Positions 469 to 22,920 of a stretch of 38,118 nucleotides of DNA are shown one piece after another (the first letter of the stretch is position 1; each line of letters opens with the position of its first letter). A program made the translations under genes and the position numbers. Origin of the DNA: Pseudomonadales bacterium (GTDB taxonomy: Bacteria; Pseudomonadota; Gammaproteobacteria; Pseudomonadales; Pseudohongiellaceae); the NCBI GenBank assembly GCA_022821865.1, contig JAJECW010000049.1, positions 1-38,118 on the forward strand, read 5' to 3'. Under the pieces are notes generated by a model. The model saw only the letters and a program-made list of their open reading frames with translations, was not told where the DNA came from and made no database searches.

Positions 469-1509
469 TTGCGCGATTCAAACGAGCACTCGCCGGGCGC
501 ATTGGAGGCGGACCGGCAATATCAGGCAGGGATCCTGCCTGCCGTATCGCGCACCTTCGCCTTGACGATCCCCGCCCTGCCGGACCGCCTCGCCCTGGTG
601 GTGGCCAATGCCTATTTGCTGTGCCGCATTGCCGATACCGTCGAGGACGACCCGCAACTTGCCGCCGGGGAGAAGGAAGTCGGGCTCGGGCGGTTCCTCG
701 CCGCGGTCAAGGGGGAGGAAGACGCCGCCGGCTTCTCCGCCGCAATGGCGCCCCGGCTCGCTCCGGAAACTTCCGAGGCGGAACGCGAACTGATGCGTAA
801 TGTGGCGCGGGTGGTTGCCGTAACCCATTCCTTCAGCGACGCGGAGCGCCGAATACTTGAGCGCTGCGTCAGCGTCATGTGCGTTGACATGCCGAAATTC
901 CAGCGCAACAGCAGTCTGGCGGGACTGCGGGATCTGGCCGAACTCGATGCCTACTGCTATGCCGTGGCCGGCGTTGCCGGCGAGATGCTCACCGACCTGT
1001 TCTGCATTCATTGCCCGGAACTCGAGCCGAAGCGGGAGGAGCTTCGCAAGCTTGCGGTGTCTTTTGGCCAGGGCCTGCAAATGACCAATATCCTCAAGGA
1101 CATCTGGGACGACCATGAGCGCGGCGCCTGCTGGTTGCCCCGTTCGGAATTCGATGATGGACGCCTGGAACTCGCGAAACTGCCGGAAATCCACTTGCGC
1201 GGCGAATTCCAGCAAGGCTTGCAAAACCTGATCGCCGTCGCCCACGGGCACCTCGTGAACGCCCTCGAATTCACCTGCCATCTGCCCGCCCGGGAGCGGG
1301 GCATGCGCCGCTTTTGCCTTTGGGCCCTGGGTCTTGCGGTGCTGAGCCTGCAGAAGCTCCGGCGCAATTCCGGCTTTACCGCCTCCGATCAGGTAAAAGT
1401 GTCCCGGCGCAGCGTGCGCGCCACGGTATTGGCCACCAATCTGCTGGTGTCAAACAATTCCGGCCTGCGCGGCCTGTTCCGCTTCGCCGCCCGGGGGCTG
1501 CCCCGCTGA
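469..1509 (+). CDS. sqs: Squalene synthase (farnesyl-diphosphate farnesyltransferase)
   Basis: Predicted to condense two farnesyl diphosphates head-to-head, via presqualene diphosphate, to squalene, the substrate for the neighbouring epoxidase. Both aspartate-rich Mg-diphosphate motifs are visible: DTVED at about residues 56-60 and DIWDD at about 211-215, the latter inside LQMTNILKDIWDD. The YCYAVAGVAGEMLTDLF stretch before it is typical of squalene synthases. The protein has 346 residues and no obvious C-terminal membrane anchor, unlike eukaryotic enzymes. No ATG is usable; I chose TTG at 469 because AGGA lies 7 nt upstream, whereas TTG at 463 is too close to it. The gene overlaps the convergent epoxidase-cyclase gene tail-to-tail by 60 nt. 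A presqualene diphosphate or phytoene synthase is the alternative, but the locus argues for squalene synthase. Confidence 0.88.
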   Translation: MRDSNEHSPGALEADRQYQAGILPAVSRTFALTIPALPDRLALVVANAYLLCRIADTVEDDPQLAAGEKEVGLGRFLAAVKGEEDAAGFSAAMAPRLAPETSEAERELMRNVARVVAVTHSFSDAERRILERCVSVMCVDMPKFQRNSSLAGLRDLAELDAYCYAVAGVAGEMLTDLFCIHCPELEPKREELRKLAVSFGQGLQMTNILKDIWDDHERGACWLPRSEFDDGRLELAKLPEIHLRGEFQQGLQNLIAVAHGHLVNALEFTCHLPARERGMRRFCLWALGLAVLSLQKLRRNSGFTASDQVKVSRRSVRATVLATNLLVSNNSGLRGLFRFAARGLPR

Positions 1510-4500
1510 GGATTCCACCCGCAATTGCCGGGCGCGGCGGCGGCGCTCGAAAAGACCAAGCGCATGGAGCGGGAAGTATTGCCGGTACAACTCGTAATCG
1601 AGCAATGCGGTGCGAAAGAAAACTCCCACCATGTCCTGTCTCGGCCAACTGCCGTCGGCTTGCTGGGCATCGATCAGGAATCTTGCGCCCCGGGAGATTG
1701 CAGTCCAGTGTGAATCGCCGGCTTCCAGCAGGGCAAGCAGTGCCCAGGCGGTCTGGATGATCTGGCTTTCCTGGTGTTCGACATAGGCGCCGCTGAGACA
1801 ACCACTGGCATGTTCGCCCCAGCCGCCGTCGCTACGCTGGCGGTCCAGCAACCAGCGGCAGGCCTGCCTGAGCGCCGGGTCGCCGGAACGGGCGCCGCCC
1901 GCCATCAGTCCCTTGACGCCAAACATCGTGCCGTAGATGTATTGCACCCCCCAGACGCCCCGCCAGGAGCCATCCCCGGCCTGATTGCGCCGCAGCCAGT
2001 CATCGGCCCTGGCGATGGCCTTGCCCACTTCGGGTCCCGCAGCCCCGGTGTATTCCCGACGGCAGGCGGCAAGCGCGGCCAGGCAGGATGCCGTGCATTC
2101 CACATAGGAATGCTCGGTCATGGACTCGCCGAACATTTCCGCCGGATTGAGCCAGTCCAGACCGATGCGGGAGCGTCTGGCCTCGTAGCTGCCGAAGCCC
2201 CCGTCCCGGCACTGGCTTCGCAACATGAAGCGGATGCCCCGGGTCATGGCTTCCCTGTCCTCCCCTGGCCCTCCCGCGGCAAGCACGCCTAGGATGGCTT
2301 CGGCGGTGCAGTCGCTTACCGGCCAGCCATGCCAGACGCCGGCAAAACACCAACCGCCCTCGGGGTCATTGCGAAAGGCTTCATGAAAGCCCGGGAAGCT
2401 GCGGGGAATCTGCTGGCGGCGAAGAAAGTCCGCCCCCCGCCCGAGGCTGGCTTTCACCGCATCGCTTTGGTTGGCGGCAGCCAGCGCCTGCAGGGCGAAG
2501 CCGGTGTCCCAGGAAGCGCTGCGGGCGCCGGTGATACGGGTTCCACCGGATTCATCCTCCCAAATCCAGTCCTCGAGTTTTGCCAGAGCCTGCCCGCAGT
2601 TTGCGTCGTCCGGGTCGTGCAGCCACAGGGCCAGAATATTGAGCATGCCGCTTACCGGGGAAATACTGGTATGGCTTGAACTTTGCAACTCCCAGCGGAT
2701 ACGGTCGATCAACTCATCCCGGCAGCGGGCCCGCAGGCGCTTGCTGTGGAAGCGCTCATAGCACCGGGCCAGCGCGTATCCACCCCGCAGCCAGCGGCTC
2801 GGCCGAACGAACAGTTCCTCCTCCCGCAGCCGGTTGCGCCCGGTGCTGAAATCCATCGAGCCATAGCCTTCCGGATACAGTTCTTGCCGCAGGGTTTCAG
2901 CGAGGCGATTCTCCGGCAAGGTATCGCGGTGGGCATAAACCGCCGCCATCGCCATGTAGATGAGGCGGGTGTGGCAGTACCAGTTGGCTGGATGCAGTGC
3001 CAGCCAGCGCGGCAGGCGCCAGAGTTCCGGTAGTAGCACATGCATCCCCCGCCAGTCATAGAGGCCGAGCAGCGCCAGCCAGAATTTCCCCCAACTCGGA
3101 ATGTTCAACACGCCTTCCCGCCCGATAAACTCCCGGGCGGGGGCGATGAGCGGGTCATCGGGTTCCACATCAAGCACCCGCGCCGCCACATACACCAGGG
3201 TCGTGACAAAAAGGTAAGCCCCGGAATGATCGTGCAGCCCCCAAAGCCCATCGGCAAGCCGGGTTTGCTCGAACTGCCGCAGCAGCAATCGGCGACGCTC
3301 CGGGGTGGCCGGCTTGCCCATGATGTGATGCAGCAGCGCATACTGGGCGGCAAGCATGGGGCACCACCGCATTTCGCCTTCCCAGGCGCCGTCTTCCCGC
3401 TGCAGGGCCAGCAGGCGCTTGCTTGCCTGTTCCAGGGCGGCGGCGTCGCCATCGGCCGGCCCAACCGGCGGGTCCGGGCGCGCGCTGTGGGTGTATCCCC
3501 GCATGGAAGTCAGGAAGGCCCCGGACATCTTGTCCAGCACAACTTTTTCATTGGCGCCGGTCAGGCTGCGCGCCCTGCGCATTTCCCCCACGGCGCCCAG
3601 CAGCGCGCGGATTCGCCTGGTAATCGCGCGGAATTCCCGAGAAGCCTGGCGCCAGGCGATCCTGCGTCCTGGCCGAAACAGACTGTTCCCAACGCCAGCC
3701 AATACGGTTGCGGTGAACGCCAGGCTGAGCATGCCCACCGACCGGCTTTCACAGGCGAGCAGCCGCATGGTCTGCCGGCGAATGAGTTTGCTGAGGCGCC
3801 AGTTGCCGTAGATGGCCTGCCGCAGGGAGGCAGACTCCGGAGCATGGTCGCTGAAAACCTCGTACAGCCCCATGGCGAGAAGCTGGGGCATCCGGGTGTC
3901 CTTCAGCCGCCGATGGGAAAAATCCCTGAAGTTGTTGCTTTCGGCCAGGGCGAGGGCGTCTCCGAAACCGAGGGTCATGCCGGCGGCGGTCATGGGATGG
4001 TAATGTCCGGCGGCATCGCCGATGAGCGTCCGCCGGCTGTTTCCGTAGGTCAACCGGGGTCGCAATTCATTGGCGGCGGCCTGGAAGTTTCCCGCCTGCA
4101 ATTCGGCAATGAAGGCTGGCCCGAGACCATCGGGCAACAGGCCGGCATAGGATTCCGCAAGCACATGGATCCGGTCTTTTGGCGTCCAATGGTCCAGGGG
4201 CATGTCGGCAATGACCCGCACGCGACCTTCGCCGAGCGGCACGGTGAGCATGGGCCCCGGGGCGCCGAGCACCACATAGCCATAGCCCTCATGGGCCAGT
4301 TCCGCGTTTTCCACCACCACGCCCACCATGCGCGAGCAGGTCATGCGCTCCGTGGGCAGCCCGAGTGATTGCCGCACGATGGAAGCGCGCCCGTCGGCGC
4401 CGACGATGCGCCCGGCGCGCAGCAGGCGTTTCTCGCCGTCCTGACTGAAACGGATGCCGTCGTCCTCAATGGCCCGGGCCCGGGCGCGCCGGAAAACATC

Positions 4501-4908
4501 GATGGCGGACGCTTCCCCGATGGCTTCATGCAAGGCGGTCACCAGGGCGGCATGTTCGAACACCAGACCGCTGGCGCCGTCGGCATAGGGCAATACCACA
4601 GGCACTGAGCCGTCTTCGGGAAATACCACGAACCCTTTGCCCGGAGAAAATCCCGGGCGGCCATCAAGATCAATGCCCACACTTTGCAACATTCGCACGG
4701 CGGGAGGGTGCAGCCATTCTCCCGCCAGCCGGTCCGCGGCTTTGGGATTGGCTTCGAGCAGGGCAACCCTGAAGCCCTTGCGGGCATGAGCCAGGGCGCA
4801 AAGACTGCCCACCGGGCCAGCGCCAACAATGGCGATGTCGTAGCTGGCGTGCTGTCCCTTCAGTGGTTCAGGCTGGTCCGGGAGCGGCGTTGATAGCGAA
4901 TGCGACAT
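1450..4908 (-). CDS. Fused squalene monooxygenase - oxidosqualene cyclase
   Basis: One uninterrupted 1152-residue frame carries two sterol enzymes. Residues about 22-450 are an FAD monooxygenase of the squalene epoxidase type: dinucleotide motif IVGAGPVGS (27-35) and second FAD motif GDAAGHYHPMTAAGMTLG (297-314), matching the GD...HPLTGGGM pattern of squalene epoxidases. A Pro/Ala-rich linker (about 475-490) leads to a triterpene cyclase (about 490-1120) with repeated QW motifs and the oxidosqualene cyclase acid motif DCTAE (866-870), not the DXDD of squalene-hopene cyclases. Predicted reaction: squalene to 2,3-oxidosqualene to a lanosterol-type sterol. ATG at 4908 overlaps the end of CYP51 by 49 nt. 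Internal ATGs near residues 461 and 469 lack ribosome sites, so separate translation of the cyclase is unlikely. Bacterial sterol producers I know of use two separate genes. Confidence 0.9.
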   Translation of the reverse strand: MSHSLSTPLPDQPEPLKGQHASYDIAIVGAGPVGSLCALAHARKGFRVALLEANPKAADRLAGEWLHPPAVRMLQSVGIDLDGRPGFSPGKGFVVFPEDGSVPVVLPYADGASGLVFEHAALVTALHEAIGEASAIDVFRRARARAIEDDGIRFSQDGEKRLLRAGRIVGADGRASIVRQSLGLPTERMTCSRMVGVVVENAELAHEGYGYVVLGAPGPMLTVPLGEGRVRVIADMPLDHWTPKDRIHVLAESYAGLLPDGLGPAFIAELQAGNFQAAANELRPRLTYGNSRRTLIGDAAGHYHPMTAAGMTLGFGDALALAESNNFRDFSHRRLKDTRMPQLLAMGLYEVFSDHAPESASLRQAIYGNWRLSKLIRRQTMRLLACESRSVGMLSLAFTATVLAGVGNSLFRPGRRIAWRQASREFRAITRRIRALLGAVGEMRRARSLTGANEKVVLDKMSGAFLTSMRGYTHSARPDPPVGPADGDAAALEQASKRLLALQREDGAWEGEMRWCPMLAAQYALLHHIMGKPATPERRRLLLRQFEQTRLADGLWGLHDHSGAYLFVTTLVYVAARVLDVEPDDPLIAPAREFIGREGVLNIPSWGKFWLALLGLYDWRGMHVLLPELWRLPRWLALHPANWYCHTRLIYMAMAAVYAHRDTLPENRLAETLRQELYPEGYGSMDFSTGRNRLREEELFVRPSRWLRGGYALARCYERFHSKRLRARCRDELIDRIRWELQSSSHTSISPVSGMLNILALWLHDPDDANCGQALAKLEDWIWEDESGGTRITGARSASWDTGFALQALAAANQSDAVKASLGRGADFLRRQQIPRSFPGFHEAFRNDPEGGWCFAGVWHGWPVSDCTAEAILGVLAAGGPGEDREAMTRGIRFMLRSQCRDGGFGSYEARRSRIGLDWLNPAEMFGESMTEHSYVECTASCLAALAACRREYTGAAGPEVGKAIARADDWLRRNQAGDGSWRGVWGVQYIYGTMFGVKGLMAGGARSGDPALRQACRWLLDRQRSDGGWGEHASGCLSGAYVEHQESQIIQTAWALLALLEAGDSHWTAISRGARFLIDAQQADGSWPRQDMVGVFFRTALLDYELYRQYFPLHALGLFERRRRARQLRVESSAGQPPGGEAEQAAQAGIV

Positions 4909-6251
4909 GGCAGCCTGGGGCCGGTGACCCAGCTTCCGTAATTCGGGGCGGGAAATGGCGTGGCGGGTTGAAAATCGAAGCGGTCCAGCAAAACGGTCCA
5001 GATCGCCTTGATCTGCATGATGGCAAAATTCTTTCCCATGCAGCGGTGTTTGCCGCCGCCAAAGCCGATCAGGGCGTAGGGATGCTGTTTTTCCCCGCTG
5101 GAAGGCGGGGTGAAACGATCCGGGTTGAAGGATTCCGGGTCGGCGAATACTTCGGGCAGGCGATGGGAAACCGCCGGCGAAATCGCCGCCAGGGATCCTG
5201 CGGGCACGGTGTAATCGCCGTAGCGCAAGGGTCTGAGCGCCTTGCGGAAAAGAATGATCAGCGGCGGATGCAGGCGCTCGCATTCGCGCACGGTGTTTTC
5301 CATGGTCTGCTGCTGCTTCAGGCCGGCGTAGCTCAGCTTTGCCTCGTCCCGGTACACCGCTTCTATCTCTTCCCGCAGCCGGTCGGGAAAGGGCGCATGC
5401 CGGTGCATTTCGAGGGCGGTCCAGGTGGCGAGCACGGCGCTGGTGTGCTGACCGGCAAACAGCACCGTGAGCAGGATGCCGGTGATCTCGTCATCGCTCA
5501 GGCTGCGGCCATCCTTGTAGCTCGCTTGCATCAGGGTCTGCATGAAATCCGTGGATTCGGCGCCGCTTTGGCGCCGTTCATTCATGATGCGGATGAATAT
5601 TTCCGTGATTCTGCGCCGCGCCCGATCCCGGCTCCGATGGGCGGGAGTCGGCAGCCGGGGAAAGAAAAAGCCCAGGGTATTGATGCCATTTTGCAGGTCG
5701 TGGTAGGCCTCGGCAAAGCCGGAGTCCACTTCATTGCGAATTTCCTCGCCGAGAAAGCAGCGGCTGGCGATATGGATGGTGAGCTCGTTCATCGCCACCG
5801 GCAGGTCGATTTCGCCCTGCTCGCCCAAGGAGTCGGCAAAGCGGCCGGTTTCCTCGTGCATGATGTCCACATAGCGCTTCATTGCGGACTCGCGCAGCGC
5901 GGGAAACAGAAAACCGAGCTGCTCTGTCATGATTTCGGAGGAAACATCGTAGGCTACGCCGCGACCGAAGATGGGCACGGTGAACTGATACACCGATTTG
6001 GCGTCCAGGGTTTCTTCCGGGGCCTTGAAGTAGGCGTTGTGGGCGTCAAGGCCGGAAAACAATACGAACTTGCGCGGCCCGAGTCGAAACTCGAACAACT
6101 CTCCCTGCTCCCGGCAACCCCGGCTGAGCATTGCGACCGGGTCGCGCTGGAATTCCCGCAAATGCCCAAGCAGGGGCCAGCCGCCGGAAACTTCAGGCGG
6201 AGATTGCCCGGTTTCCAGGGCAGCGTCGGCGCTTTGCGAACCCGGCGTCAT
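4860..6251 (-). CDS. cyp51: Sterol 14-alpha-demethylase, cytochrome P450 CYP51
   Basis: Removes the C-14 methyl of lanosterol-type sterols by three successive oxidations, leaving a delta-14 double bond. The 463-residue protein has the CYP51 I-helix motif AGQHTS (266-271), the ExxR motif ECER (323-326) followed by LHPPLIILFR, and heme-binding FGGGKHRCMG (397-406) with Cys404 as iron ligand. These closely resemble mycobacterial CYP51. No N-terminal membrane helix is evident. It ends after the P450 domain, so it lacks the C-terminal ferredoxin of Methylococcus CYP51 and needs separate redox partners, which are not in this window. I chose ATG at 6251, 8 nt after the sterol reductase stop, over upstream starts lying inside that gene. 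Its 3' end overlaps the epoxidase-cyclase start. Confidence 0.93.
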   Translation of the reverse strand: MTPGSQSADAALETGQSPPEVSGGWPLLGHLREFQRDPVAMLSRGCREQGELFEFRLGPRKFVLFSGLDAHNAYFKAPEETLDAKSVYQFTVPIFGRGVAYDVSSEIMTEQLGFLFPALRESAMKRYVDIMHEETGRFADSLGEQGEIDLPVAMNELTIHIASRCFLGEEIRNEVDSGFAEAYHDLQNGINTLGFFFPRLPTPAHRSRDRARRRITEIFIRIMNERRQSGAESTDFMQTLMQASYKDGRSLSDDEITGILLTVLFAGQHTSAVLATWTALEMHRHAPFPDRLREEIEAVYRDEAKLSYAGLKQQQTMENTVRECERLHPPLIILFRKALRPLRYGDYTVPAGSLAAISPAVSHRLPEVFADPESFNPDRFTPPSSGEKQHPYALIGFGGGKHRCMGKNFAIMQIKAIWTVLLDRFDFQPATPFPAPNYGSWVTGPRLPCRIRYQRRSRTSLNH

Positions 6252-6259
6252 TGCGGCTC

Positions 6260-7363
6260 TCAATAGACAAAGGGCAGCATGGCGAACCGCGCCCGCCGGG
6301 TGTAGCACTCCCAAAGCTCGCCGTACTTGGCGCGGCAGCGGCGCTCATCGCGCAGGCAGCGGTGGGACAGCAATGCCGCCAGCCATGCCGGCAGCAGCAG
6401 CGGCACAAGCGAGGCGAATCCCGCGGTGAGGGTGAAGGCCAGATACACGCAGATTTCGCCGGTGTAGTTCAGGTGCCTGCCAATGCCCCAGAATCCCGAA
6501 ACCAGCAGGCGCCCGTCGAGCGATTCGGCTGGTTTGCCCCAGATGCGGGTGGCCGGGTCCTGCCTGAAGCGGTGCTTTTGCCCGTTGGCGCCGCGAAACA
6601 GCCAGAAGCCGAACAGAAACAGCAGTGCAAGCCCGACAGCGGCAGGAGTTGGCAGGGCGGGCCCCGCGGCGTCCACCAGCCACCAGCCGGTGATACAGTA
6701 GAAGAAGGGCACGAGCACATAGTCGCCCCAGACGAGCATCCAGCCAAAGCGTTCGGCGACGATGTCCCAAGTGTGGATCATGCCGTGCTCGAAGTGAAAG
6801 TAATTGAAGACATAAAGAAAAGTGAAAAGCTGATACAAGACCATGGCCAGACTGAGCTCGCCATGGGTTTCATACTGCACCACGGCGAAAGAGGCATTGA
6901 ACAGCGCCAGCCCGATCAGCGAGGGGCGATAGCTGAACATTTTCAGATCAACGCCGAAGCACGAGGGGTTCAGTTCCCGGCCAAAAAAATAGCCGCGCCA
7001 GAATCCCGCCGGCGCCCCCGATGCCTTCGCGCCGCGCCAGTACAGCCAGCCGGCAAAGGCAAAAGCGAAAACATTGGCCATCACCAGCAGCGCCGGGAAA
7101 TGGCTGTACAGCATCGCCAGCGAAAACCAGCCGAAAAAGCCCGCAATGCCAGCCAGGACAAAACTCAGCAGAAACAGGTGCAGGCCATTGAGCCTGCACG
7201 GGCGGCTTGCGCCGCCGGCGTCGCGCAGCATGAGTTCGCGACCGGGCAACAGCCGGGAACCGGCAAAAAGGAAGGCAATGAAGCCGAGCAGCATCAGCGC
7301 GGCTTGCAACAGATTCGCCGCCGAAAGCATGCCGGCGGCGAATGGCGAATCAGGCGGCGGCAT
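6260..7363 (-). CDS. Sterol C-14 reductase, ERG4/ERG24 family
   Basis: A 367-residue polytopic membrane protein of the ERG24/DHCR7/lamin-B-receptor family. The C-terminal family signature is clear: SGFWGIGRHLNYTGEICVY followed by a hydrophobic stretch, then DERRCRAKYGELWECY and a terminal LPFVY. Upstream lie several hydrophobic segments. In this locus the natural job is NADPH-dependent reduction of the delta-14 bond made by CYP51. A delta-7 or delta-24(28) activity of the same superfamily cannot be excluded from sequence alone. ATG at 7363 overlaps the sdmA stop by 14 nt; a later ATG at 7330 is possible. CYP51 follows after 8 nt, so the two are almost certainly cotranscribed. Confidence 0.85.
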   Translation of the reverse strand: MPPPDSPFAAGMLSAANLLQAALMLLGFIAFLFAGSRLLPGRELMLRDAGGASRPCRLNGLHLFLLSFVLAGIAGFFGWFSLAMLYSHFPALLVMANVFAFAFAGWLYWRGAKASGAPAGFWRGYFFGRELNPSCFGVDLKMFSYRPSLIGLALFNASFAVVQYETHGELSLAMVLYQLFTFLYVFNYFHFEHGMIHTWDIVAERFGWMLVWGDYVLVPFFYCITGWWLVDAAGPALPTPAAVGLALLFLFGFWLFRGANGQKHRFRQDPATRIWGKPAESLDGRLLVSGFWGIGRHLNYTGEICVYLAFTLTAGFASLVPLLLPAWLAALLSHRCLRDERRCRAKYGELWECYTRRARFAMLPFVY

Positions 7364-8456
7364 GTCCGGCCCCGGCTTCCCGCTCGAGATACTCCTGCCA
7401 TTTGCGCACGGTAACCCGCTGAAACGCGGCCACCACCGGATTGACCTCGATCGCCGGCTCGTCCCAATGTCGCTCGTAACCGGATTGCTCGGCCTCCACG
7501 GCAACCCGGTCCTGGTCGAGCAGGGGGCCGATAAGCAGCCGGTTGGAAATCTTCATCAGGGACTTCATGGCAAAGCGCGGGATGCGCACCGGCAGCAGGG
7601 GGATTTTCAGAGACTTGAAGTAGAACAGAAAAAATGTCCGGGTGGTGCGCTCATCGATGGGCAGCACGAACAGCCAGTGCTTGATTTCATCGTCGGTATT
7701 GGACCACTGGTAGGGGTACTGGTAGCACAGTTTCATGTGGTTGGTATTGAGCCGGCCATGATCGACAAACAGGCCGGAAATGCGCCCGCGGCCAACCCGG
7801 GAATCGTACTCCAGATGCACATCGTCCCCCAGGGTTTTGCAGGCGGTGAGTTCGGCCCCGTCGAAGGGGCGGTACTTGCGGTGCAGGTGGGCGTGGGAAA
7901 AATCGCTCACATTGTCGATGATCATCGAATGATGGGCCGCGCAGGTGAACCCCAGGGGCACGCAGGCCCAGCGGTCATTGCCTTCGATTTCGGGAATCTC
8001 GGGGATGCTACGCTGCCCCGCGAGTTCCGGATTGCCGGGAAAAAGCCAGACAAGCCCATAACGCACCCTGATCGGATAACTGCGGATGGAGATGTCGGGC
8101 AATTCCTTGCGGCCGAACAGGTCGGGGATTTCCACCACCCGGCCTTGCTCATCGTACTTCCAGCCGTGATAGGCGCAGACCAGCTTGCAGTCATCCACCT
8201 GACCGAGCGACAGTTTGAGCTGGCGATGGGCGCAGCGGTTTTCCACCGCGTGAAATTCTCCGTCATCGCTGCGAAAAAGGGCGATGGAACGTTTCCAGAA
8301 CACCACCTCCACCACGGTTCCGGGTTTGACATTGCGTACTTCTTCCACCGCGTACCAGTAATCCGGGCACATGCCCGCCGCCCGGGATTTCTGCCGCAGG
8401 CTGCGGGCCTCCTTGAAACCGGGCGGCGGTGTTGTCGTCGTTGCTGCCGTATTCAT
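7350..8456 (-). CDS. sdmA: Sterol C-4 demethylase, Rieske oxygenase (SdmA-like)
   Basis: Predicted to oxidise a C-4 methyl group of the sterol nucleus. The 368-residue protein has an N-terminal Rieske [2Fe-2S] domain with C75-x-H77 and C94-x2-H97 (NRCAHRQ and LVCAYHGWKY), then a catalytic domain with DNVSDFSHAHLH (181-192), in which Asp185, His188 and His192 are candidate mononuclear iron ligands. Bacterial C-4 demethylation is known to use the pair SdmA (Rieske oxygenase) and SdmB (reductase), and that pair is adjacent here inside a sterol operon, which is the main reason for the specific name. ATG at 8456 overlaps the sdmB stop as ATGA, indicating translational coupling. Rieske oxygenases need a reductase for electrons; none is nearby. 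Confidence 0.85.
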   Translation of the reverse strand: MNTAATTTTPPPGFKEARSLRQKSRAAGMCPDYWYAVEEVRNVKPGTVVEVVFWKRSIALFRSDDGEFHAVENRCAHRQLKLSLGQVDDCKLVCAYHGWKYDEQGRVVEIPDLFGRKELPDISIRSYPIRVRYGLVWLFPGNPELAGQRSIPEIPEIEGNDRWACVPLGFTCAAHHSMIIDNVSDFSHAHLHRKYRPFDGAELTACKTLGDDVHLEYDSRVGRGRISGLFVDHGRLNTNHMKLCYQYPYQWSNTDDEIKHWLFVLPIDERTTRTFFLFYFKSLKIPLLPVRIPRFAMKSLMKISNRLLIGPLLDQDRVAVEAEQSGYERHWDEPAIEVNPVVAAFQRVTVRKWQEYLEREAGAGHAAA

Positions 8457-9601
8457 GCCTGCGCCTCGCCGGCTGTCGCCGACGAATCCTCTTCCGGCCA
8501 AGCTTCCATGGACTGATACGCTGCATTGTCCCGCGGCGGTTTTGCCGCGGGATTTTCAATCGCCTTGCGCTCATGGTAGTGGAACGCATAGGCCTCGTGG
8601 ACCGCGTCGCGGATGCTGCTCGGCTGGTAGCCCAGTTCATTCTTCGCCTTGGCCAGATTGGCGTGGCGGCATTTCTTCAACAGCCGGATGGCGCCGGGGG
8701 TGAAGCGCTGGGGAAAGTCCGGATGGAAGCGGCTCAGATAAAAACTGGCAATCTCCGAAAACACATACATGAGATTGGCGGGTATCCGCCGGTTCGGGCG
8801 CGGAATGCCGGAAACTTCCTCGTAGAGGTCGAGAATATCGGAAATCGTCAGGTACTGGCTGCTGAAGATGTATTTTTCTCCGCTGCGGCCTTTTTCCATG
8901 CATAGCAGGTGACCCTGCACAATGTCCCTGGCCGCGACGAATTCAAAACCGCCATCGACATAGGCTCGCAGCTTGCCATTGGTGTAATCGCAGAGCGTCC
9001 TGCCGAGCCGCGATGGGAAATAATCCGCGCCGCCCACCACCGCGCAGCAGGTCGCCACGATCACATCCTGACCCTTGGCCGCCGCCCGCAGGCATTCGTG
9101 CTCCACCAGCGTCTTGCTGCGCTCGTAGGGCATGGTGCGTTCCATGGGGTAGAACTGCATGGTCTCGTCGCTGGGCGCGGACGGGTCGTCCAGATCGTAA
9201 CCCACGGCGCTGAACGAACCGGTAACCACCACCCGGCCGGCTTCGGCTTCCCGGGCCGCCTGGAGCAAATTGCGGGTGCCGAGCACATTGCATTCATAGA
9301 TTTCCCGGCGGTGGGCGAGGTCGCCGTCGATAGTGGAAATCTTGGCGGCGACGTGATACACGCCCCGGCTACCTTCCACGGCGCGGCGGGTAGCGTCCAG
9401 GTCGCGAATGTCGGCCCAGGCGCGCTCCACCGCAAGGCCATCCAGCGCGGAATTATTGTCTTCCCCGCGCAGCAGCACTCGTACCCTGACTCCATCGTCA
9501 AGCAGCCGACGCACGAGATTCGCCCCCACATGGCCGGCTGAGCCGGTAACGAGGACCGGCGCCGTCCGTGAATCGGAGGCTTGGGAAGATTGGGTATTCA
9601 C
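8453..9601 (-). CDS. sdmB: Sterol C-4 decarboxylase/reductase, 3-beta-HSD family (SdmB-like)
   Basis: An extended short-chain dehydrogenase of the 3-beta-hydroxysteroid dehydrogenase / NSDHL type, predicted to act with SdmA in the NAD(P)-dependent steps that remove the oxidised C-4 carbon. It has 382 residues, the Rossmann motif TGSAGHVG (about 19-26) and the catalytic Y-x3-K pair YERSK (about Tyr159, Lys163), with an upstream serine in VVTGSFSA. I chose GTG at 9601 because AGGA lies 6 nt upstream; an in-frame TTG at 9616 is less likely. It is the first clear sterol gene of the minus-strand operon and overlaps sdmA by 4 nt. A generic 3-beta-HSD role would be possible out of context. Confidence 0.82.
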   Translation of the reverse strand: MNTQSSQASDSRTAPVLVTGSAGHVGANLVRRLLDDGVRVRVLLRGEDNNSALDGLAVERAWADIRDLDATRRAVEGSRGVYHVAAKISTIDGDLAHRREIYECNVLGTRNLLQAAREAEAGRVVVTGSFSAVGYDLDDPSAPSDETMQFYPMERTMPYERSKTLVEHECLRAAAKGQDVIVATCCAVVGGADYFPSRLGRTLCDYTNGKLRAYVDGGFEFVAARDIVQGHLLCMEKGRSGEKYIFSSQYLTISDILDLYEEVSGIPRPNRRIPANLMYVFSEIASFYLSRFHPDFPQRFTPGAIRLLKKCRHANLAKAKNELGYQPSSIRDAVHEAYAFHYHERKAIENPAAKPPRDNAAYQSMEAWPEEDSSATAGEAQA

Positions 9602-9660
9602 CTTGTTTCCTGGCAATTGTCAGTCCGCGATTTCTTCTGTCGCGGTAAGCGCCGTTGAAG

Positions 9661-11504: not shown

Positions 11505-13700
11505 ATGATGCCTGGTCGATTTCGATACCGCTTGACTGCTGCCGCACTCGCCGGCCTCGCGCTTGGCCTCTGCGGCGGCGGCGCAGCCCAGGACAATGTG
11601 GGGGAAGAGTCCACCGTGGTCTATCCCGCCTCGTATTTCGAGGAATACTCCCCGGTCAGCGCCCAGGACATGCTTGACCGTATTCCCGGCATGGAGTCCA
11701 GGGGCGGACCCGGCGGCGGCGGGCCTCCCCGGGGTTTTTCCGGCGGGCCGGGGGGTGGGCCGAACGTTTCCCGGGGCGGCCGCGGATTCGGCGGCGGCCG
11801 CAGCGGCGGCAATGAGATCCTCATCAATGGCAAGCGCACCGCGGGCAAGAACAACAACACCAGCGGCGTGCTCGACCGCATCACCGCGGCCCAGGTGGAC
11901 TATATCGAAATCATCCGCGACACCAGCGGCTCGCTCGACGTGCGCGGCTCGGGCCAGGTGGTCAATGTGGTGCTGTTCGAGGAATTGTCCAGCACCAGCA
12001 TTTCCTACGATGTGAACATGGACAACTACATCAGCAATGAGAACCGCCCCGGCGGCAATCTCGCGCTCAGCGGCCAGAGCGGCGGCCTCAACTATGTGAT
12101 CAGCGCCCAGGCCACGCCGCGCTTCATGGACCAGACCACCTGGGAGGAATCGGTGCTCGGCGACTTCTCCCCCAATGACGCCATCCGGGAGGAGCGCACC
12201 ATCGATGCGGCCAATTACGAACTCAGCGCCAATCTTGATTACCAGTTCAGCAACCGCAGCAGCGCCCGGCTGAATGCGCTGTTCGGCCACAACGACCGGC
12301 CATCATCGGTAATGCGTCATATCACCGATCTCAAGGTCGAACCCAATGTGCGGGACATTGAGCGGGAGGAAATCCCCGCCGAATCCAACAACTGGGAAAT
12401 TGGCGGCGACTATGAATATCTCACCGACAACAACTCCCGTTTCAAGGTGCTGTTCATCGCCAATGAAAACGACAATGCCTCCCTGCGCGAACGCTTTGAC
12501 GTGCTCGCGGGCGGCGATGAGAAAAACCTGTTCCTCAATACCGATTCGACGATCACCGAGCGCATCATCCGCGGTTCCTGGACTTTCGACATCGGCGACA
12601 GCCAGGATCTGGAGCTTGGCGCCGAGGGCGCCCAGACAGTGCTCGATTCCAGCCTGGCGCTGGGGCTTGCCGGAACCGGCGCGCCTTCGGCGGCGGTGGG
12701 CGGGCTGGTGCCGGTTTCCGTCGCCAATGCCAATTCCGAGGTGGAGGAGTTGCGCTACGAGCCTTTCGCCATCCACAACTGGGCGCTCAATCCGCGCCTG
12801 ACGCTGGAATCGACCCTGCTGTGGGAAACCTCAACGATTACCCAGAGCGGCGATGTCAGCAACTCCCGGGATTTCCAGTTCCTCAAGCCCAAGCTCGACC
12901 TGCGCTACAACCTGACGCCGCAACTGCAACTGCGCGGCTCCGTCGAGCGCGTGGTGCTGCAATTGAGCTTTGCCGATTTCGTCGCCGCCAATGACGAGCA
13001 GGACGACGATTCCAACACCCAGGCGGGCAATGTCAACCTGCGTCAGGAATGGTTGTGGAAATACGATTTCAACGCCGAATACCGGCTCCCCAATGACTAT
13101 GGCGTACTCGACGCCAATGTCTATTACCACGCCCATCACGACCGCATCGAGCGTATCGACGTCACCGTGGACGAAGACAATCTCCAGTCCGCCAACGGCA
13201 ATATCGGCGATGGCGAAATGTGGGGATTCCGGGGCAACGCCAGCGTCCGCATGCGAATGTTCGACCTGCCCAACCTGCTGCTCACCGCCAGCCTCACGGT
13301 GGAGGACTCCCGCATCATGGACCCCTTCCTGGCCTATGAGCGGCGCTTCCAGAACATGGCCCGGGGTTTCAATTCCTTCGGCTTCCGCCACGACATTCCC
13401 CAGTGGAATCTCAACTGGGGCGGCCGCTGGATGAACCGCCACGACGGCAATATCCTGCGGGTCGATATCGACGATATCGAATACGCCTCCGGCGACCCCC
13501 GGGGCTCGCTGTTCGTGGAATACATCGACCGCCGCGGACTCACCTGGCGCCTGGAAGGCCAGAGCCTGTCCAATCCGGAAAACTGCCGCGAGCGATTGCG
13601 CTATCTTGGGCGCGTTTCCGCAGGCGTGCTGGAAGAACTGGAGTTCCGCTGCAATTCTTCCGGGCGGGTGATCAATTTCAAGGTGAGCGGGACGTTCTGA
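11505..13700 (+). CDS. TonB-dependent receptor with glycine-rich plug
   Basis: A 731-residue outer-membrane receptor: signal peptide (about 1-28, ending GGGAAQ), plug domain with SAQDMLDRIPGM and later ILINGKRTAGK and RITAAQVDYIEIIRD, then a long beta-barrel ending in a C-terminal Phe (VINFKVSGTF), as usual for outer-membrane proteins. Between residues about 63 and 103 is a run of Gly, Pro, Arg and Ser that interrupts the plug. The substrate cannot be told. GAGG lies 6 nt upstream of ATG 11505. The gene is divergent from the operon leading into the sterol genes. Confidence 0.85.
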   Translation: MMPGRFRYRLTAAALAGLALGLCGGGAAQDNVGEESTVVYPASYFEEYSPVSAQDMLDRIPGMESRGGPGGGGPPRGFSGGPGGGPNVSRGGRGFGGGRSGGNEILINGKRTAGKNNNTSGVLDRITAAQVDYIEIIRDTSGSLDVRGSGQVVNVVLFEELSSTSISYDVNMDNYISNENRPGGNLALSGQSGGLNYVISAQATPRFMDQTTWEESVLGDFSPNDAIREERTIDAANYELSANLDYQFSNRSSARLNALFGHNDRPSSVMRHITDLKVEPNVRDIEREEIPAESNNWEIGGDYEYLTDNNSRFKVLFIANENDNASLRERFDVLAGGDEKNLFLNTDSTITERIIRGSWTFDIGDSQDLELGAEGAQTVLDSSLALGLAGTGAPSAAVGGLVPVSVANANSEVEELRYEPFAIHNWALNPRLTLESTLLWETSTITQSGDVSNSRDFQFLKPKLDLRYNLTPQLQLRGSVERVVLQLSFADFVAANDEQDDDSNTQAGNVNLRQEWLWKYDFNAEYRLPNDYGVLDANVYYHAHHDRIERIDVTVDEDNLQSANGNIGDGEMWGFRGNASVRMRMFDLPNLLLTASLTVEDSRIMDPFLAYERRFQNMARGFNSFGFRHDIPQWNLNWGGRWMNRHDGNILRVDIDDIEYASGDPRGSLFVEYIDRRGLTWRLEGQSLSNPENCRERLRYLGRVSAGVLEELEFRCNSSGRVINFKVSGTF

Positions 13701-16071: not shown

Positions 16072-18591
16072 CTAGAAATTCAACCGCAAGGTTGCGCCGT
16101 AGGTCCGGGGGGCTTCGAGAAAGGAACCCCGGGCGCCTGGCCGCAGCGGGATATTGAAAGTCAGATTGCGGGCCCGGGTGTCGGTGACATTGTTGCCCCA
16201 GATTTCGAACATCCAGCCGCCGTCTTCATCGCCGATGCCGGCGCGCAGATTGACCATGTCGTGGGCTTCCATGATGTCGAAGTCCAGGTTGGGCTGGGTG
16301 CTGGTGCGGCGATCATCCACCCAACGATAGTTGCCGGACAGGAAGTACCGGTAATCGCCGACAAAGCCCTGGTACTCCAGGCCCGCGGTGGCGGTGTTCT
16401 CCGGCGCATTGGTCAGGGCCGCCCCGCAAAGCGAGCTGACCGAACCCGGCGCGTTCGGGTCATTGCCGTCGCAATCGCCGGGATACTCGGAGTCCGCCAG
16501 GGTGTAGCCGAAGTTCAGGTTCAGGTTTTCGGTCAGCAGGGCGGCGAGTTCAAGCTCGGCGCCCTGGCTCCGGGCCTTGGGCACATTGAAGGTTCTGAAC
16601 TGCACACCGGTGAATTCAAGCACCTGGAAGTCCTCCAGGTCGTAAGTCCAGGCCGCGACATTTGCGCGCAGGCGATCATTGAAGATCTGGGTCTTGAGCC
16701 CCACTTCCCAGGCGTCATTGGTTTCGGCGCGGAATCTCGGGTCGGCGCCGCCGATGGCCGCGGTGGCGTCGAGGTTGAATCCGCCGGACTTGTAGCCGTG
16801 GGTAAAGCTGACGTAACCCGAAACGAGTTCGCTGAAGTCATTGGACAGCTTGACGGTATAGGCAAGCGTATCGTCGTCGTAGGTATCGGCGAAAGTCACC
16901 GGGCGGCCGGGTATGAGGTCGGCGGGCGCGGCAAAGGGAAAGCAGACGTATCCCGCGCTGAAGGCGCCGATGGTGCCCGCCACCACTTCCAGTCCGGTCC
17001 CCGCCGCGCCCGCTGCCAGCGCCCCCGCATTGGCGACGGTATTGGCGCAGGCCTGATTGGGTGACGGACCCTGGCGGAAGGCGCCGTCTTTCTGTTCGTC
17101 GATCCAGCGCAGGCCGAAAATCAGGTCCAGATCTTCGGTCAACTCCAATGTGTTCTGGGTGAAAAGGGAAGTCGAACGCCCGTCCTGGGTGAAGTGGTTC
17201 TGGGCGTGGCTGCCCGCGGCATTGACGCCGCCGGCGAAAGCCGTGGCGGGCGAAGGCGACGCCAGCACATCGGCAAAGGTGCCGCCGGTGGCCAGGGGAA
17301 CCTGGCCGAGCAAGGGCGCGGCGCCGAGCACGGGAGCGAAGGCGAAACGCCACAGCATGGCGTCGGTGTTGGCGGTGAAGTCGCTGCCAAGGCCAAGGCC
17401 GGCGCTGGCATAGATGTCTTCGGTGCTCAGGTACGCGCCCAGCATCCAGCTCAGCCGGTTCGTTTCTCCCGTCAGTCGCAATTCGGTGGTGATCGTGTCG
17501 ATTTGCGCGACGGTGGGAAATCCGCCCGCCGCGGCAGGCGATACCGAAAAGACGTCCATGCTGACGAAATCGGATTGCTGCACCGCATCCGAATCATAGG
17601 AACGCCAGGAGCTGAGCCAGGTGAGCGCCACATTCTCGTCAAGATCCCAGTTCAGTTCCGCCGAGATTCCGGTTTGCTCGGAGCCGTTCTCGAACTGCTC
17701 CGCATTGGAGATCATGTTTTCCACGGCCCCATCGCCCAGTGCCTGGATGCCGCCGTCCGCGGGCAGCCCGGCGGCGGCGAAGGAGCCGAGGGCGCGTCCC
17801 GCCGAATCCTGCATGGTCACAGCGTCGCAGCATAGCTCGTCGGAGTCCGCGTAGTCGGCGATCAGCCGCAGGTCGGCGGTGTCGGAGAGGTTCCAGAGCA
17901 ACTGCCCCCGCAGCGAGAGCCGGTCCCGGTTGCGGCTTTCGGCGCCGGTGGTGGATTCGAGAAAGCCGCCCTGTTCGCGCCGGGCGATGGACAGTCGGTA
18001 GCCGAGCTCGTCCCGGATGATCGGCCCGCTGATTCCGGCCTGGAGATTGAGACCATCGTAATTCGCCGCGGTGATATTGGCGAAGGATTCGTTTTCGCCC
18101 AGATTCGGCCTGCGGGTGCGGATGCTGATGGCGCCGGCGGAAGTATTGCGGCCGAACAGGGTGCCCTGTGGCCCCCGCAGCACTTCCACCTGCTCCACGT
18201 CCATGAGGTCGCTGAGGGCGATGCCCGGGCGGCTCAGGTAGACATCGTCGAGAAACACGCCCACGGCGCTTTCGAGGCCGATATTGTTGCCCGTGGTGCC
18301 GACCCCGCGGATGCGCAGGGTGGTGCCGCCGGTTTCGGTCTGGGACGAATTCATGTTGAATGAAGTCGCCAGGGTGGAAAGGTCCCTGAGGTCCTTGACG
18401 CCGGCCCGGTCAAGGGCTTCGGCGCTGATCGCGGTTACCGCCACCGGTACCTCCTGCAGGGATTCCTCGCGCCGGGTGGCGGTGACGAGGATTTCCTCGA
18501 CTGCCGCGGTTGCTTCGGTTTGCGCCTGCGCGAAAGCAGGCGACACAAGTGTGAGCCCTGTGCAGATCGCACAGGCAAGATGTTTTTGCAT
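16072..18591 (-). CDS. TonB-dependent receptor
   Basis: An 839-residue outer-membrane receptor. Signal peptide about 1-21 (ending SPAFAQ), a TonB-box-like EEILVTATRREESLQEVP (about 32-49), plug with TLRIRGVGT and QVEVLRGPQGTLFGRN, and a barrel that ends RTYGATLRLNF with terminal Phe. The plug resembles the large family of receptors used by marine and oligotrophic Proteobacteria for sugars, aromatics or terpenoid-like molecules; the ligand cannot be inferred. GGGGGAG precedes ATG 18591. The immunity-like/hydrolase/YdeI operon lies downstream on the same strand after about 200 nt. Confidence 0.9.
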   Translation of the reverse strand: MQKHLACAICTGLTLVSPAFAQAQTEATAAVEEILVTATRREESLQEVPVAVTAISAEALDRAGVKDLRDLSTLATSFNMNSSQTETGGTTLRIRGVGTTGNNIGLESAVGVFLDDVYLSRPGIALSDLMDVEQVEVLRGPQGTLFGRNTSAGAISIRTRRPNLGENESFANITAANYDGLNLQAGISGPIIRDELGYRLSIARREQGGFLESTTGAESRNRDRLSLRGQLLWNLSDTADLRLIADYADSDELCCDAVTMQDSAGRALGSFAAAGLPADGGIQALGDGAVENMISNAEQFENGSEQTGISAELNWDLDENVALTWLSSWRSYDSDAVQQSDFVSMDVFSVSPAAAGGFPTVAQIDTITTELRLTGETNRLSWMLGAYLSTEDIYASAGLGLGSDFTANTDAMLWRFAFAPVLGAAPLLGQVPLATGGTFADVLASPSPATAFAGGVNAAGSHAQNHFTQDGRSTSLFTQNTLELTEDLDLIFGLRWIDEQKDGAFRQGPSPNQACANTVANAGALAAGAAGTGLEVVAGTIGAFSAGYVCFPFAAPADLIPGRPVTFADTYDDDTLAYTVKLSNDFSELVSGYVSFTHGYKSGGFNLDATAAIGGADPRFRAETNDAWEVGLKTQIFNDRLRANVAAWTYDLEDFQVLEFTGVQFRTFNVPKARSQGAELELAALLTENLNLNFGYTLADSEYPGDCDGNDPNAPGSVSSLCGAALTNAPENTATAGLEYQGFVGDYRYFLSGNYRWVDDRRTSTQPNLDFDIMEAHDMVNLRAGIGDEDGGWMFEIWGNNVTDTRARNLTFNIPLRPGARGSFLEAPRTYGATLRLNF

Positions 18592-20629: not shown

Positions 20630-22849
20630 TCAATTCATCCGGTTGACCGGGGACGGGCCGAATGAGAGCCAGCCTCCCTGATACTTCGCGCCGCCGGCGT
20701 CACCGCGGTTCCAGTCACATACGCCGTCGGGGAAAATCATCTGCAACTCGGCCCATTCGCGTTCGGTAAGCGGCTGGCGATATTCATCCCGGTTCACGGG
20801 CCGCAGGCGGCAGGAGACGATATGGTTCGCCAGGGGCGCCCCCGCCACATGGCGCGGCGTGGGATACGCGGGATACAGCTCGCCGCAGCGACCCTCGCCG
20901 GCGTAGCCGAGTTCTTCCTCGATCTTGATTCGCTCGGGGCCGGTGGCGTCCCAGCAGGCGTCATTCAGTCGGGTGGGACGATTGGCGGCAACGATCAGGT
21001 CAGACGGCATGGATGACTCGTCCCGCCGGATTGCCAGAATCCACTCATCCATGCGCCGGAACAGCTCGCCGAGATCATCGTTCCCGGGCTCAAAACCCCA
21101 TTTTCCGCCGATCTGCATGACGTGATTGCGGGCATTGCCATTGACGAGCCGCAACCGTTCCCGGGTGGAGTACTGATGCACGATCATGTGGATATCGCCG
21201 TTTTCAGCGTGGTCGGTGTAGCTGCGGTAATCGATCACCGGGATTGCCGCGAGCCCCCCGCCGCCGTTGAGTATGCGGCCCGATTCGAAGGCGCGGCGAC
21301 GGGCGGCCGGGTCGGCGCGGTGGCGCTCGAACACATGGTTCAGGTCGCGGTCAAAACCGCCGATATCGCGGTTCAGATCGATGAACTGCCGCGCCGTGAT
21401 CTGCCCGGTATTGAAAGCGGCGAGGCCGTACTGCACGCCGTAATTGTCCAGTGGACGCAGGGCGCTGCCGCTGGCCGGGTCTGCGCCATACACATTGACG
21501 GCATGATCGTACACGGTGGCCCGGATTCCTCCCTGCCCCGGGTGATAGAGAATCGCGCGCAATTGGTCGAGGCCCACTTCGCCGCCCTGGTCTTCGGGCA
21601 GCGCATTGGGCTCGAAAATCGGATCGAGCCGGGCCGCGCCGCGGCTGAGATTGGCGATGGACCCCCAGGATCCGAAACCCGATATCGCCTGCTGCTGTTC
21701 GGGGCTGAATTCGCCGGGGCTGATCACCGTGAAGTAGTGATACAGCAATCGGGCATCGACGACGGTGAAAATGGTTGCCGAGATGACGTCGGGGAAGCTG
21801 GCGGAGACGATGATGCCGTCGAATACGCCGGGATAGTTGTCGGCGGTCTGGTGTGACTGGTAAGAGCCGCCGGAAGCTCCGGTGGCGATGGTGTAGCCGG
21901 GCACGCCATAACGCTCAATGAATCGCTCCTTGACCATGATGTGGGTCTCGGAAGCGAGCAGGTCGTTGCAGTTCTGGCCGAACACATTGAGCGAGGAAGA
22001 GACGACGGCGTATCCCTGTTCGAACAGGCCCCGCCGCATGACGCCGCCGGTGCGCGCGCCCTGCCGGTACCAGCCGCCCCGGCAACCGCCGCCGTGGGTG
22101 TAGACCAGCTTGCCGTTCCAGCCGTTGCTGCGCTGCCACGGGCCGGGTTCGCCCTGGGCCGGGTCGTGCAGCATGGCGATTTCGTAAATGGCGCGGTTCA
22201 CCGTGCCGGTTTCCACCCGGACAATATAGGGAATCATTCGGCCCCGGCTCAGGATCCGGGCCAGGTCAGCGGGCGGCAAGGCGCCCGGGTCCGACGGGTA
22301 GGGTTTGAAGCCCTGCTCAAGATCGCTCCAGTAGACATGCTCCACCCGGCTCGCCACCGAGCAGTTCCGGTCCAGCGGCTCGCCTAGCGAATCGCCCCCC
22401 ACGGTGCGGAAGTCACCGGTTTCGCAGTAGAATGGCGCCTGTTGCGGGCCCGAGATGATGGGGCCGGTAATGGGCCAGTTGGTGATGGCGAGACTTGCCG
22501 TCCCGTCGGCGCCGGCGATGCTCGCGATGAGTTCGCTTTCGCCTTCGGGCAGCCCTTCGAGCAGCCCCTGCATGGTCTGCTCGCCCGTCTGGCGAAACCC
22601 GGCGGAAATGTTTTCTCCATTCAATTCGATTCGCAGGGCGCCCGGCTGCAGGGAACCGCCCGCATCGGTCACTCGCACTTCAACCAGGGCATCGCCGCCG
22701 GTAACCAGCCAGGGGCGGGTGGAAAGCACCTCGATTTCGATGGGCGGCGCAGCCTCAGGCTCCATCAGCATTCCGCTCGTGCTCACCGGTTCGGTGCAGG
22801 ACATCACAAGCAATCCGGCAATAACAGGCAGAAAATACAAGCGGCTCAT
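20630..22849 (-). CDS. DUF6351 family lipoprotein, alpha/beta-hydrolase-like
   Basis: A 739-residue protein starting with a lipoprotein signal (LLVMSC, Cys18) and an N-terminal beta domain (about 38-125, with PWLVTGGDALVEVRV). The rest is an alpha/beta-hydrolase-like region: THGGGCRGGWYRQG (251-264), GYAVVSSSLNVFGQNCND, and the nucleophile elbow GASGGS (324-329, Ser326), a variant of GxSxG. This matches the DUF6351 family, near to depolymerases and tannase-like esterases. The substrate is unknown. ATG 22867 would add six residues; I preferred 22849 for the compact signal peptide, but the ribosome site is weak for both. Confidence 0.82.
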   Translation of the reverse strand: MSRLYFLPVIAGLLVMSCTEPVSTSGMLMEPEAAPPIEIEVLSTRPWLVTGGDALVEVRVTDAGGSLQPGALRIELNGENISAGFRQTGEQTMQGLLEGLPEGESELIASIAGADGTASLAITNWPITGPIISGPQQAPFYCETGDFRTVGGDSLGEPLDRNCSVASRVEHVYWSDLEQGFKPYPSDPGALPPADLARILSRGRMIPYIVRVETGTVNRAIYEIAMLHDPAQGEPGPWQRSNGWNGKLVYTHGGGCRGGWYRQGARTGGVMRRGLFEQGYAVVSSSLNVFGQNCNDLLASETHIMVKERFIERYGVPGYTIATGASGGSYQSHQTADNYPGVFDGIIVSASFPDVISATIFTVVDARLLYHYFTVISPGEFSPEQQQAISGFGSWGSIANLSRGAARLDPIFEPNALPEDQGGEVGLDQLRAILYHPGQGGIRATVYDHAVNVYGADPASGSALRPLDNYGVQYGLAAFNTGQITARQFIDLNRDIGGFDRDLNHVFERHRADPAARRRAFESGRILNGGGGLAAIPVIDYRSYTDHAENGDIHMIVHQYSTRERLRLVNGNARNHVMQIGGKWGFEPGNDDLGELFRRMDEWILAIRRDESSMPSDLIVAANRPTRLNDACWDATGPERIKIEEELGYAGEGRCGELYPAYPTPRHVAGAPLANHIVSCRLRPVNRDEYRQPLTEREWAELQMIFPDGVCDWNRGDAGGAKYQGGWLSFGPSPVNRMN

Positions 22850-22920
22850 GGCAGTGCGTCCTATCACAAAGGCAGACGGCTATTGTGGAAATCCGTCCCC
22901 GCAAGGTCAAGTTTGTGCCC

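Follow-up and report, generated by a model that had tools for sequence, protein, structure and literature searches.

A predicted squalene monooxygenase/oxidosqualene cyclase fusion of the MsbE type in a sterol gene cluster of a Pseudomonadales bacterium

Background

The closest described counterpart of the gene reported here is MsbE, a fused squalene monooxygenase (SMO) and oxidosqualene cyclase (OSC) from a sponge-dwelling bacterium that was published in 2020 (PMC7074536). As described in that paper, MsbE has, like our gene, an N-terminal epoxidase and a C-terminal cyclase with the lanosterol-type valine, and its neighbours are likewise an oxidoreductase (msbA), a Rieske protein (msbB), a C-14 reductase (msbC) and a demethylase (msbD). 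The msb locus (MT026193) was compared by the text of the paper, with the msb gene order taken from the gene letters only. According to that text the methyltransferase gene msbF lies inside the msb locus and the squalene synthase is on another scaffold, whereas in our sequence a squalene synthase gene is convergent with the fused gene and the methyltransferase domain is encoded on another contig. A 2023 study refers to "Fused SMO/OSC homologs", the same fusion as ours, in one sentence of its Methods, which states that they were trimmed before the OSC tree was built (PMC10070321). By contrast, homologous enzymes for the same two reactions are encoded by two genes, MCA2872 and MCA2873, in Methylococcus capsulatus (PMC4919349), rather than by one polypeptide as here.

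The preliminary description of our sequence was not aware of a natural fusion of this kind having been described; novelty on that ground does not stand, as both MsbE and the 2023 homologs were already in print. The kind of fusion is known, and the present gene is another MsbE-type case, likened to MsbE by its published description. Added here are the distribution of the fusion, a motif survey, tests of the linker and of the trees, and a change of the partner to which the SMO is fused.

Steroid gene clusters have additionally been reported from 115 of 537 metagenome-assembled genomes (MAGs) of Ircinia symbionts, with MT026193.1 as the best BLASTn match (PMC9531527, published in 2022). Like the locus described here, these clusters have the order ERG24-CYP51-LSS with a reductase and a hypothetical gene upstream, and FDFT1 or SMT on the opposite strand at the 3′-end. 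Records with names of the jk18x..bins form, as used for the Ircinia sponge MAGs of that study, hold 11 of our 19 fused loci. The paper names the gene LSS/ERG7 only; section 14 lists no squalene epoxidase, and the main text does not contain the word "monooxygenase". The LSS/ERG7 codon alignment was 3765 positions long, which is far beyond what an unfused OSC needs and therefore fits a fusion; the LSS/ERG7 gene of that study apparently contains it. Annotation by one domain hides the fusion, so that a cluster labelled "LSS" can seem to be without an epoxidase. This matters for judging sterol synthesis by symbionts and hence bears on the sponge sterol biomarker debate.

The fused gene and its start

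The sequence analysed (the window) is the whole stretch of 38,118 nucleotides. It had been described as encoding a FAD epoxidase and a cyclase in a single frame, and this was confirmed, with the addition of the strand, which had been left unstated and is the minus strand. The gene and its parts are as follows.

1450–4908, minus: fused squalene monooxygenase/oxidosqualene cyclase gene, MsbE-type (ORF, Pfam, open frame in relatives)
3682–4842, minus: squalene monooxygenase domain, amino acids 23–409 (FAD_binding_3 and SE, motif alignment, fold match)
3433–3681, minus: interdomain linker, amino acids 410–492 (alignment, dN/dS, AlphaFold2 pLDDT)
1549–3432, minus: oxidosqualene cyclase domain, amino acids 493–1120 (Pfam, NCBIfam, lanosterol synthase alignment, motifs, fold match)

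With the ATG at 4908 as its start, the open reading frame comprises 1152 amino acids and a stop, with a calculated mass of 127.1 kDa; the first frame of the plus strand over the same interval has many stops. The longest mechanical ORF (1450–5283, minus) is 1277 amino acids long and its first 125 residues overlie, in a different frame, the upstream cytochrome P450 gene. Of eight relatives in the same genus, four had stops in the match to the full 1277 amino acids and four had not, although a stop-free match can also result from overlap with a conserved gene. From the equivalent of the ATG at 4908 the frame was open in the window and in five relatives, including, by locus, four of these eight. 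The start at 5283 was rejected for the overlap with the P450 gene together with the stops. Because the longer match is interrupted in half of the eight relatives, while the frame from 4908 is open in relatives, 1450–4908 is likely to be the gene and the ATG at 4908, judged from these frames, its likely start.

The squalene monooxygenase half

Numbering from the Met at 4908, Pfam placed FAD_binding_3 at amino acids 23–322 and SE (PF08491) at amino acids 169–409, the latter with 65.5 bits, above the gathering cut-off of 20.1. The closest solved structure by sequence to this part is squalene monooxygenase 6c6n (E 1.2e-21), and the AlphaFold2 model matched human squalene epoxidase with a TM score by target of 0.81. 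The motifs GxGxxG, DG and GD, which we take to be the FAD motifs expected of a squalene monooxygenase, are all intact in the window, as GAGPVG (amino acids 29–34), VGADG (amino acids 169–173) and GDAAGHYHP (from amino acid 297). Of the 24 fused rows that were aligned (L045 is cut at the 3′-end), 22 keep the DG motif, the window included; the exceptions were the myxobacterial L110 and L111. The dN/dS of the SMO was 0.12–0.13 in the three closest pairs of the window.

The oxidosqualene cyclase half

SQHop_cyclase_N was found at amino acids 493–786 and SQHop_cyclase_C at amino acids 797–1120 (Pfam). The squalene/oxidosqualene cyclase model TIGR01787 scored 509.9 bits, above its cut-off of 322.7. 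The narrow 2,3-oxidosqualene cyclase subfamily TIGR03463 scored 709.3 bits, below its cut-off of 851, and the gene is therefore not filed under that subfamily; the same cut-off was passed by only one of the 188 Myxococcota genomes sampled. The closest solved structure overall by sequence is lanosterol synthase 1w6k (E 2.2e-129), and the model matched human OSC with a TM score by target of 0.83. Alignment and motifs identified D866 in DCTAE, H646, Y908 and the lanosterol-type valine V864. The Asp of DCTAE, the counterpart of human H232 and the valine at the position of human V453 are present in all 24 fused rows. Valine at the V453 position marks lanosterol synthases and isoleucine cycloartenol synthases, as summarised in PMC4919349. 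In a 55-row OSC tree the cyclase was separated with 100/100 support from eight low-scoring cyclase rows, the two sides being labelled by TIGR03463 score, with no named reference enzyme in the tree.

A divergent cyclase frame of another genome (L106:4486–6747, plus; G032) had 32% identity to the query; in the tree it sits on a long branch among the low-scoring cyclases, which are probably of squalene-hopene type.

The sterol gene cluster and the predicted pathway

The fused gene is the last of a minus-strand run of sterol genes with overlapping frames, and it meets a squalene synthase gene on the plus strand.

463–1509, plus: squalene synthase (Pfam SQS_PSY, 164 bits)
4860–6314, minus: cytochrome P450 (Pfam p450, 213.7 bits; same position in relatives)
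6260–7504, minus: sterol C-14 reductase, ERG24/msbC-like (Pfam ERG4_ERG24, 222.1 bits)
7350–8501, minus: Rieske oxygenase, SdmA/msbB-like (Pfam Rieske and VanA_C)
8453–9616, minus: NAD(P)-dependent 3-beta-HSD/epimerase-like dehydrogenase, SdmB/msbA-like (Pfam Epimerase and 3Beta_HSD)

From its position, the P450 is likely the sterol C-14 demethylase (msbD/CYP51-like). Its 3′-end overlaps the start of the fused gene by 49 bases, and its true start may be downstream of the TTG. The squalene synthase and fused genes are convergent and their 3′-ends overlap by 60 bases. The four upstream genes all adjoin the fused gene in 13 of 19 fused loci (Gammaproteobacteria, Rhodothermales and Candidatus Versatilivorator). 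The P450 was not recognised beside the fused gene of L054, and none of the four was recognisable within 6 kb in the Gemmatimonadetes loci L043 and L044; L045, L049 and L051 entered this comparison as short contigs. A convergent downstream squalene synthase was present in seven of the 19.

The gene very probably encodes an MsbE-type bifunctional enzyme that would form lanosterol from squalene by way of 2,3-oxidosqualene within a single polypeptide. The sequence itself establishes the fused frame, its recurrence, the intact motifs, the neighbouring genes and the single-copy status; from these we infer the activities, the product and the order of the pathway. The convergent squalene synthase would supply squalene, which the N-terminal FAD domain would oxidise to 2,3-oxidosqualene, using O2 and a separate reductase as the source of electrons. 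The C-terminal cyclase of the same polypeptide would then cyclise 2,3-oxidosqualene, most likely to lanosterol, from which the P450, the ERG24-like reductase and the SdmA/SdmB-like pair would remove the C-14 and C-4 methyl groups. Alkylation of the side chain may be the task of a sterol methyltransferase whose gene is in another part of the genome. Putative channelling of the substrate and a fixed 1:1 ratio of the two activities are plausible, and the fused protein is a ready subject for tests of substrate channelling.

The assembly of the genome (153 contigs) is 98.66% complete. It contained one match to the cyclase model and one SQS_PSY (squalene synthase) match. A search with SE gave one strong match and two others, at 19.9 bits (20.1, at the cut-off, with its neighbours) and 19.6 bits; these are frames of 414 and 497 amino acids with 27–28% identity to the query and are probably other FAD hydroxylases. 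As the strong matches are single, the genome offers no good candidate for the first two steps other than the fused protein.

The only sterol methyltransferase C-terminal domain of the genome (85.4 bits) is off the window (L149:3026–4051, plus; G000 contig C123). Near the sterol genes of the window are two TonB-dependent receptor genes (11,505–13,700, plus; 16,072–18,591, minus), and a tannase-like DUF6351 protein of 745 amino acids (729 bits) is encoded at 20,630–22,867 (minus).

Distribution of the fusion

Eight of 83 further genomes from this genus had a near-full-length match (E = 0). The preliminary description had proposed a search for single proteins covering both domains; one genome_contigs scan of public genomes revealed 22 relatives, 19 of which have both domains in one frame. 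Such recurrence goes beyond chance. The remaining three were an unfused OSC (L053) and two loci cut by contig ends (L052 and L055); on a different contig the genome of L052 carries an SMO in frame with the beginning of an OSC. The record titles of the relatives name Gammaproteobacteria/Pseudomonadales, Gemmatimonadetes, Rhodothermales and Candidatus Versatilivorator.

Among 398 genomes of the window's own phylum, only its own genome, G000, scored above 265 bits with the OSC model. The same model gave matches over 580 bits in 23 of 188 Myxococcota genomes; SMO and OSC were fused in four of these (G704, G718, G739 and G767) and unfused in 19, and partial matches over 340 bits in G611 and G659 were left out of the count. 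Among 249 Gemmatimonadota genomes the genes were fused in G579 and G580 and occurred together on cut contigs in G822 and G939 (L045). In G874 a contig end truncates the OSC, and a second OSC, split over two frames, is present in G939. L107 and L112 were considered as fusions for their long frames and rejected, as neither our SMO profile nor Pfam found an SMO in them. The fusion, which would bring the two initial committed steps of sterol synthesis together in a single protein, recurs across several bacterial phyla, and many of the bacteria that have it are from sponges.

L105 (G021:C47) is a second copy of the fused gene in its genome, broken by an internal stop, with SMO and OSC in separate open stretches.

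Fusion of SMO to squalene synthase in Myxococcota

When 187 Myxococcota genomes were searched with the L111 protein, five of them, the query's own included, proved to encode SMO and squalene synthase as a single frame (G739, G767, G758, G777 and G715). Two genomes have both SMO fusions, to OSC and to squalene synthase; in G758, G777 and G715 the OSC is unfused. The frames, with a few hundred residues between the domains of the first five, are as follows.

L111:1000–4473, minus: SMO-squalene synthase
L110:1411–4824, minus: SMO-squalene synthase
L165:7902–11,216, minus: SMO-squalene synthase
L166:7732–10,803, minus: SMO-squalene synthase
L167:2526–6170, plus: SMO-squalene synthase
L110:4763–8341, minus: SMO-OSC fusion with the Asp of the DG motif lost (motif alignment)
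L111:5656–9108, minus: SMO-OSC fusion with the Asp of the DG motif lost (motif alignment)

In L110 and L111 this second protein, encoded near the SMO-OSC gene, consists of an SMO, a middle part of about 370 amino acids and a squalene synthase domain. The middle part gave weak cyclase-type Pfam matches, below cut-off, in L110 and none in L111. The SMO of the squalene synthase fusion keeps its motifs in both loci, whereas that of the SMO-OSC fusion has AAG or ASG for ADG; a fused SMO is therefore not always a likely working epoxidase. The stand-alone SMO of L125 also has ASG, so that loss of this Asp is by itself no proof of inactivity. The fused SMO half of G767, one of the two genomes with both fusions, has a changed DG motif.

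The sterols of Sandaracinus amylolyticus, which makes lanosterol and zymosterol (PMC4919349) and cholesterol (PMC12004948), were considered as proof of a working fused epoxidase; they do not give such proof, as its epoxidase and cyclase have separate locus tags in the former paper.

On a tentative and rather doubtful reading, the epoxidase would be a mobile module, ancestrally fused to the cyclase and in some myxobacteria joined to squalene synthase, either in place of the cyclase or in addition to it, the tether serving to hand on a water-insoluble or reactive intermediate. If this were true, either the preceding or the following step would be physically tethered to the epoxidase.

The linker and alternative readings of the frame

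The linker had been described as short and rich in Pro and Ala. Its end is indeed Pro/Ala-rich and disordered, but the linker as a whole is about 83 residues long and begins with helices. The AlphaFold2 model, made from a 22-row alignment, had a mean pLDDT of 75.3 and a pTM of 0.56, with pLDDT below 50 at amino acids 446–452 and 462–486; given the low pTM and the poor confidence in the linker, the model does not predict the relative placement of the domains. In the four closest pairs dN/dS was 0.36–0.46 in the linker versus 0.12–0.20 in the two domains. The linker reached 0.85 and 1.02 when the window was paired with two more distant relatives, and L038-L046 gave 0.39. The linker is therefore read through, yet loosely constrained.

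One frame could still yield two enzymes, if initiation inside the linker or proteolysis released a separate cyclase of normal size. The obvious candidate is Met469 (position 3504 of the window), from which a protein of 684 amino acids and 76.6 kDa, near the size of an unfused OSC, would be made. This Met is kept in 18 of 20 rows outside L108–L111, although the linker is otherwise variable, and in the window the ribosome-end pairing upstream of it (−5.0) is better than that of the start at 4908 (−3.0), which is itself weak. The earlier statement that no internal ribosome site is plausible therefore holds in part: the ATG at 3504 scores at least as well as the accepted start, but the linker has no conserved site, as in the 18 rows that have Met469 its pairing takes ranks between 0.12 and 0.94 when set against all codons of the gene concerned (0.21 in the window). 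Open linkers in the 24 aligned rows are no evidence by themselves, as these rows were chosen for two-domain frames; the scan of public genomes did not select for fusion, and its count of 19 in 22 argues that the domains stay joined. Production of two separate enzymes is improbable.

It is still less probable, and indeed very unlikely, that the SMO half is vestigial or structural and that another epoxidase feeds the cyclase. Such an arrangement is suggested by L110 and L111, with their altered DG motif in the cyclase fusion and intact motifs in the nearby squalene synthase fusion, but in the window the three motifs are intact, the SMO has the low dN/dS given above for its three closest pairs, and the genome has no other strong SE match. 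Hardly any weight falls to an artefact of assembly or binning that joined two neighbouring genes. The assembly is fragmented, but the fusion recurs in 19 separate loci with 52–93% identity (best segments) and is present in the single-contig genomes G056 and G063 and in a single-contig myxobacterial record of 10,327,335 bases. The bifunctional MsbE-type enzyme remains the preferred reading.

Evolution of the fusion

In the OSC tree, which leaves out L102 and L103 (duplicates of L053 and L055), the piece from L105 and OSC pieces of fewer than 440 residues, all 25 fused rows are within one supported group of 34 rows. The other nine rows of this group were counted as unfused and are seven myxobacterial rows, L101 and the contig-cut L052. 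With L052 and L101 so counted, the fused label needs four changes on the tree, at least three of which are forced by supported branches. A single fused clade, with L052 held with the fused rows and L101 free, had a p-AU of 0.0715 and was not rejected at 5%. Loss of the SMO in the seven-row myxobacterial group is an alternative.

L101 (L101:5286–7244, plus; G585) is an unfused OSC paralog in the sponge-symbiont clade, and the same genome also has a fused gene.

The copies from Gemmatimonadota and Candidatus Versatilivorator, the latter placed in Acidobacteriota, group together with 100/100 support inside a 23-row, mainly gammaproteobacterial set whose branching is unresolved. This grouping across phyla suggests that the fused gene may have been transferred between phyla. 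Transfer of steroid clusters was also reported from the trees of the Ircinia study itself (PMC9531527). In the SMO tree, with five stand-alone or cut SMO rows left out of the count, the 28 fused rows need one change relative to the two rows fused to squalene synthase; the deep branching is open. L051 is a contig of 4.1 kb with Pseudomonadales in its title; its fused SMO clusters with the Gemmatimonadetes copies, which would reflect either transfer or a binning error.
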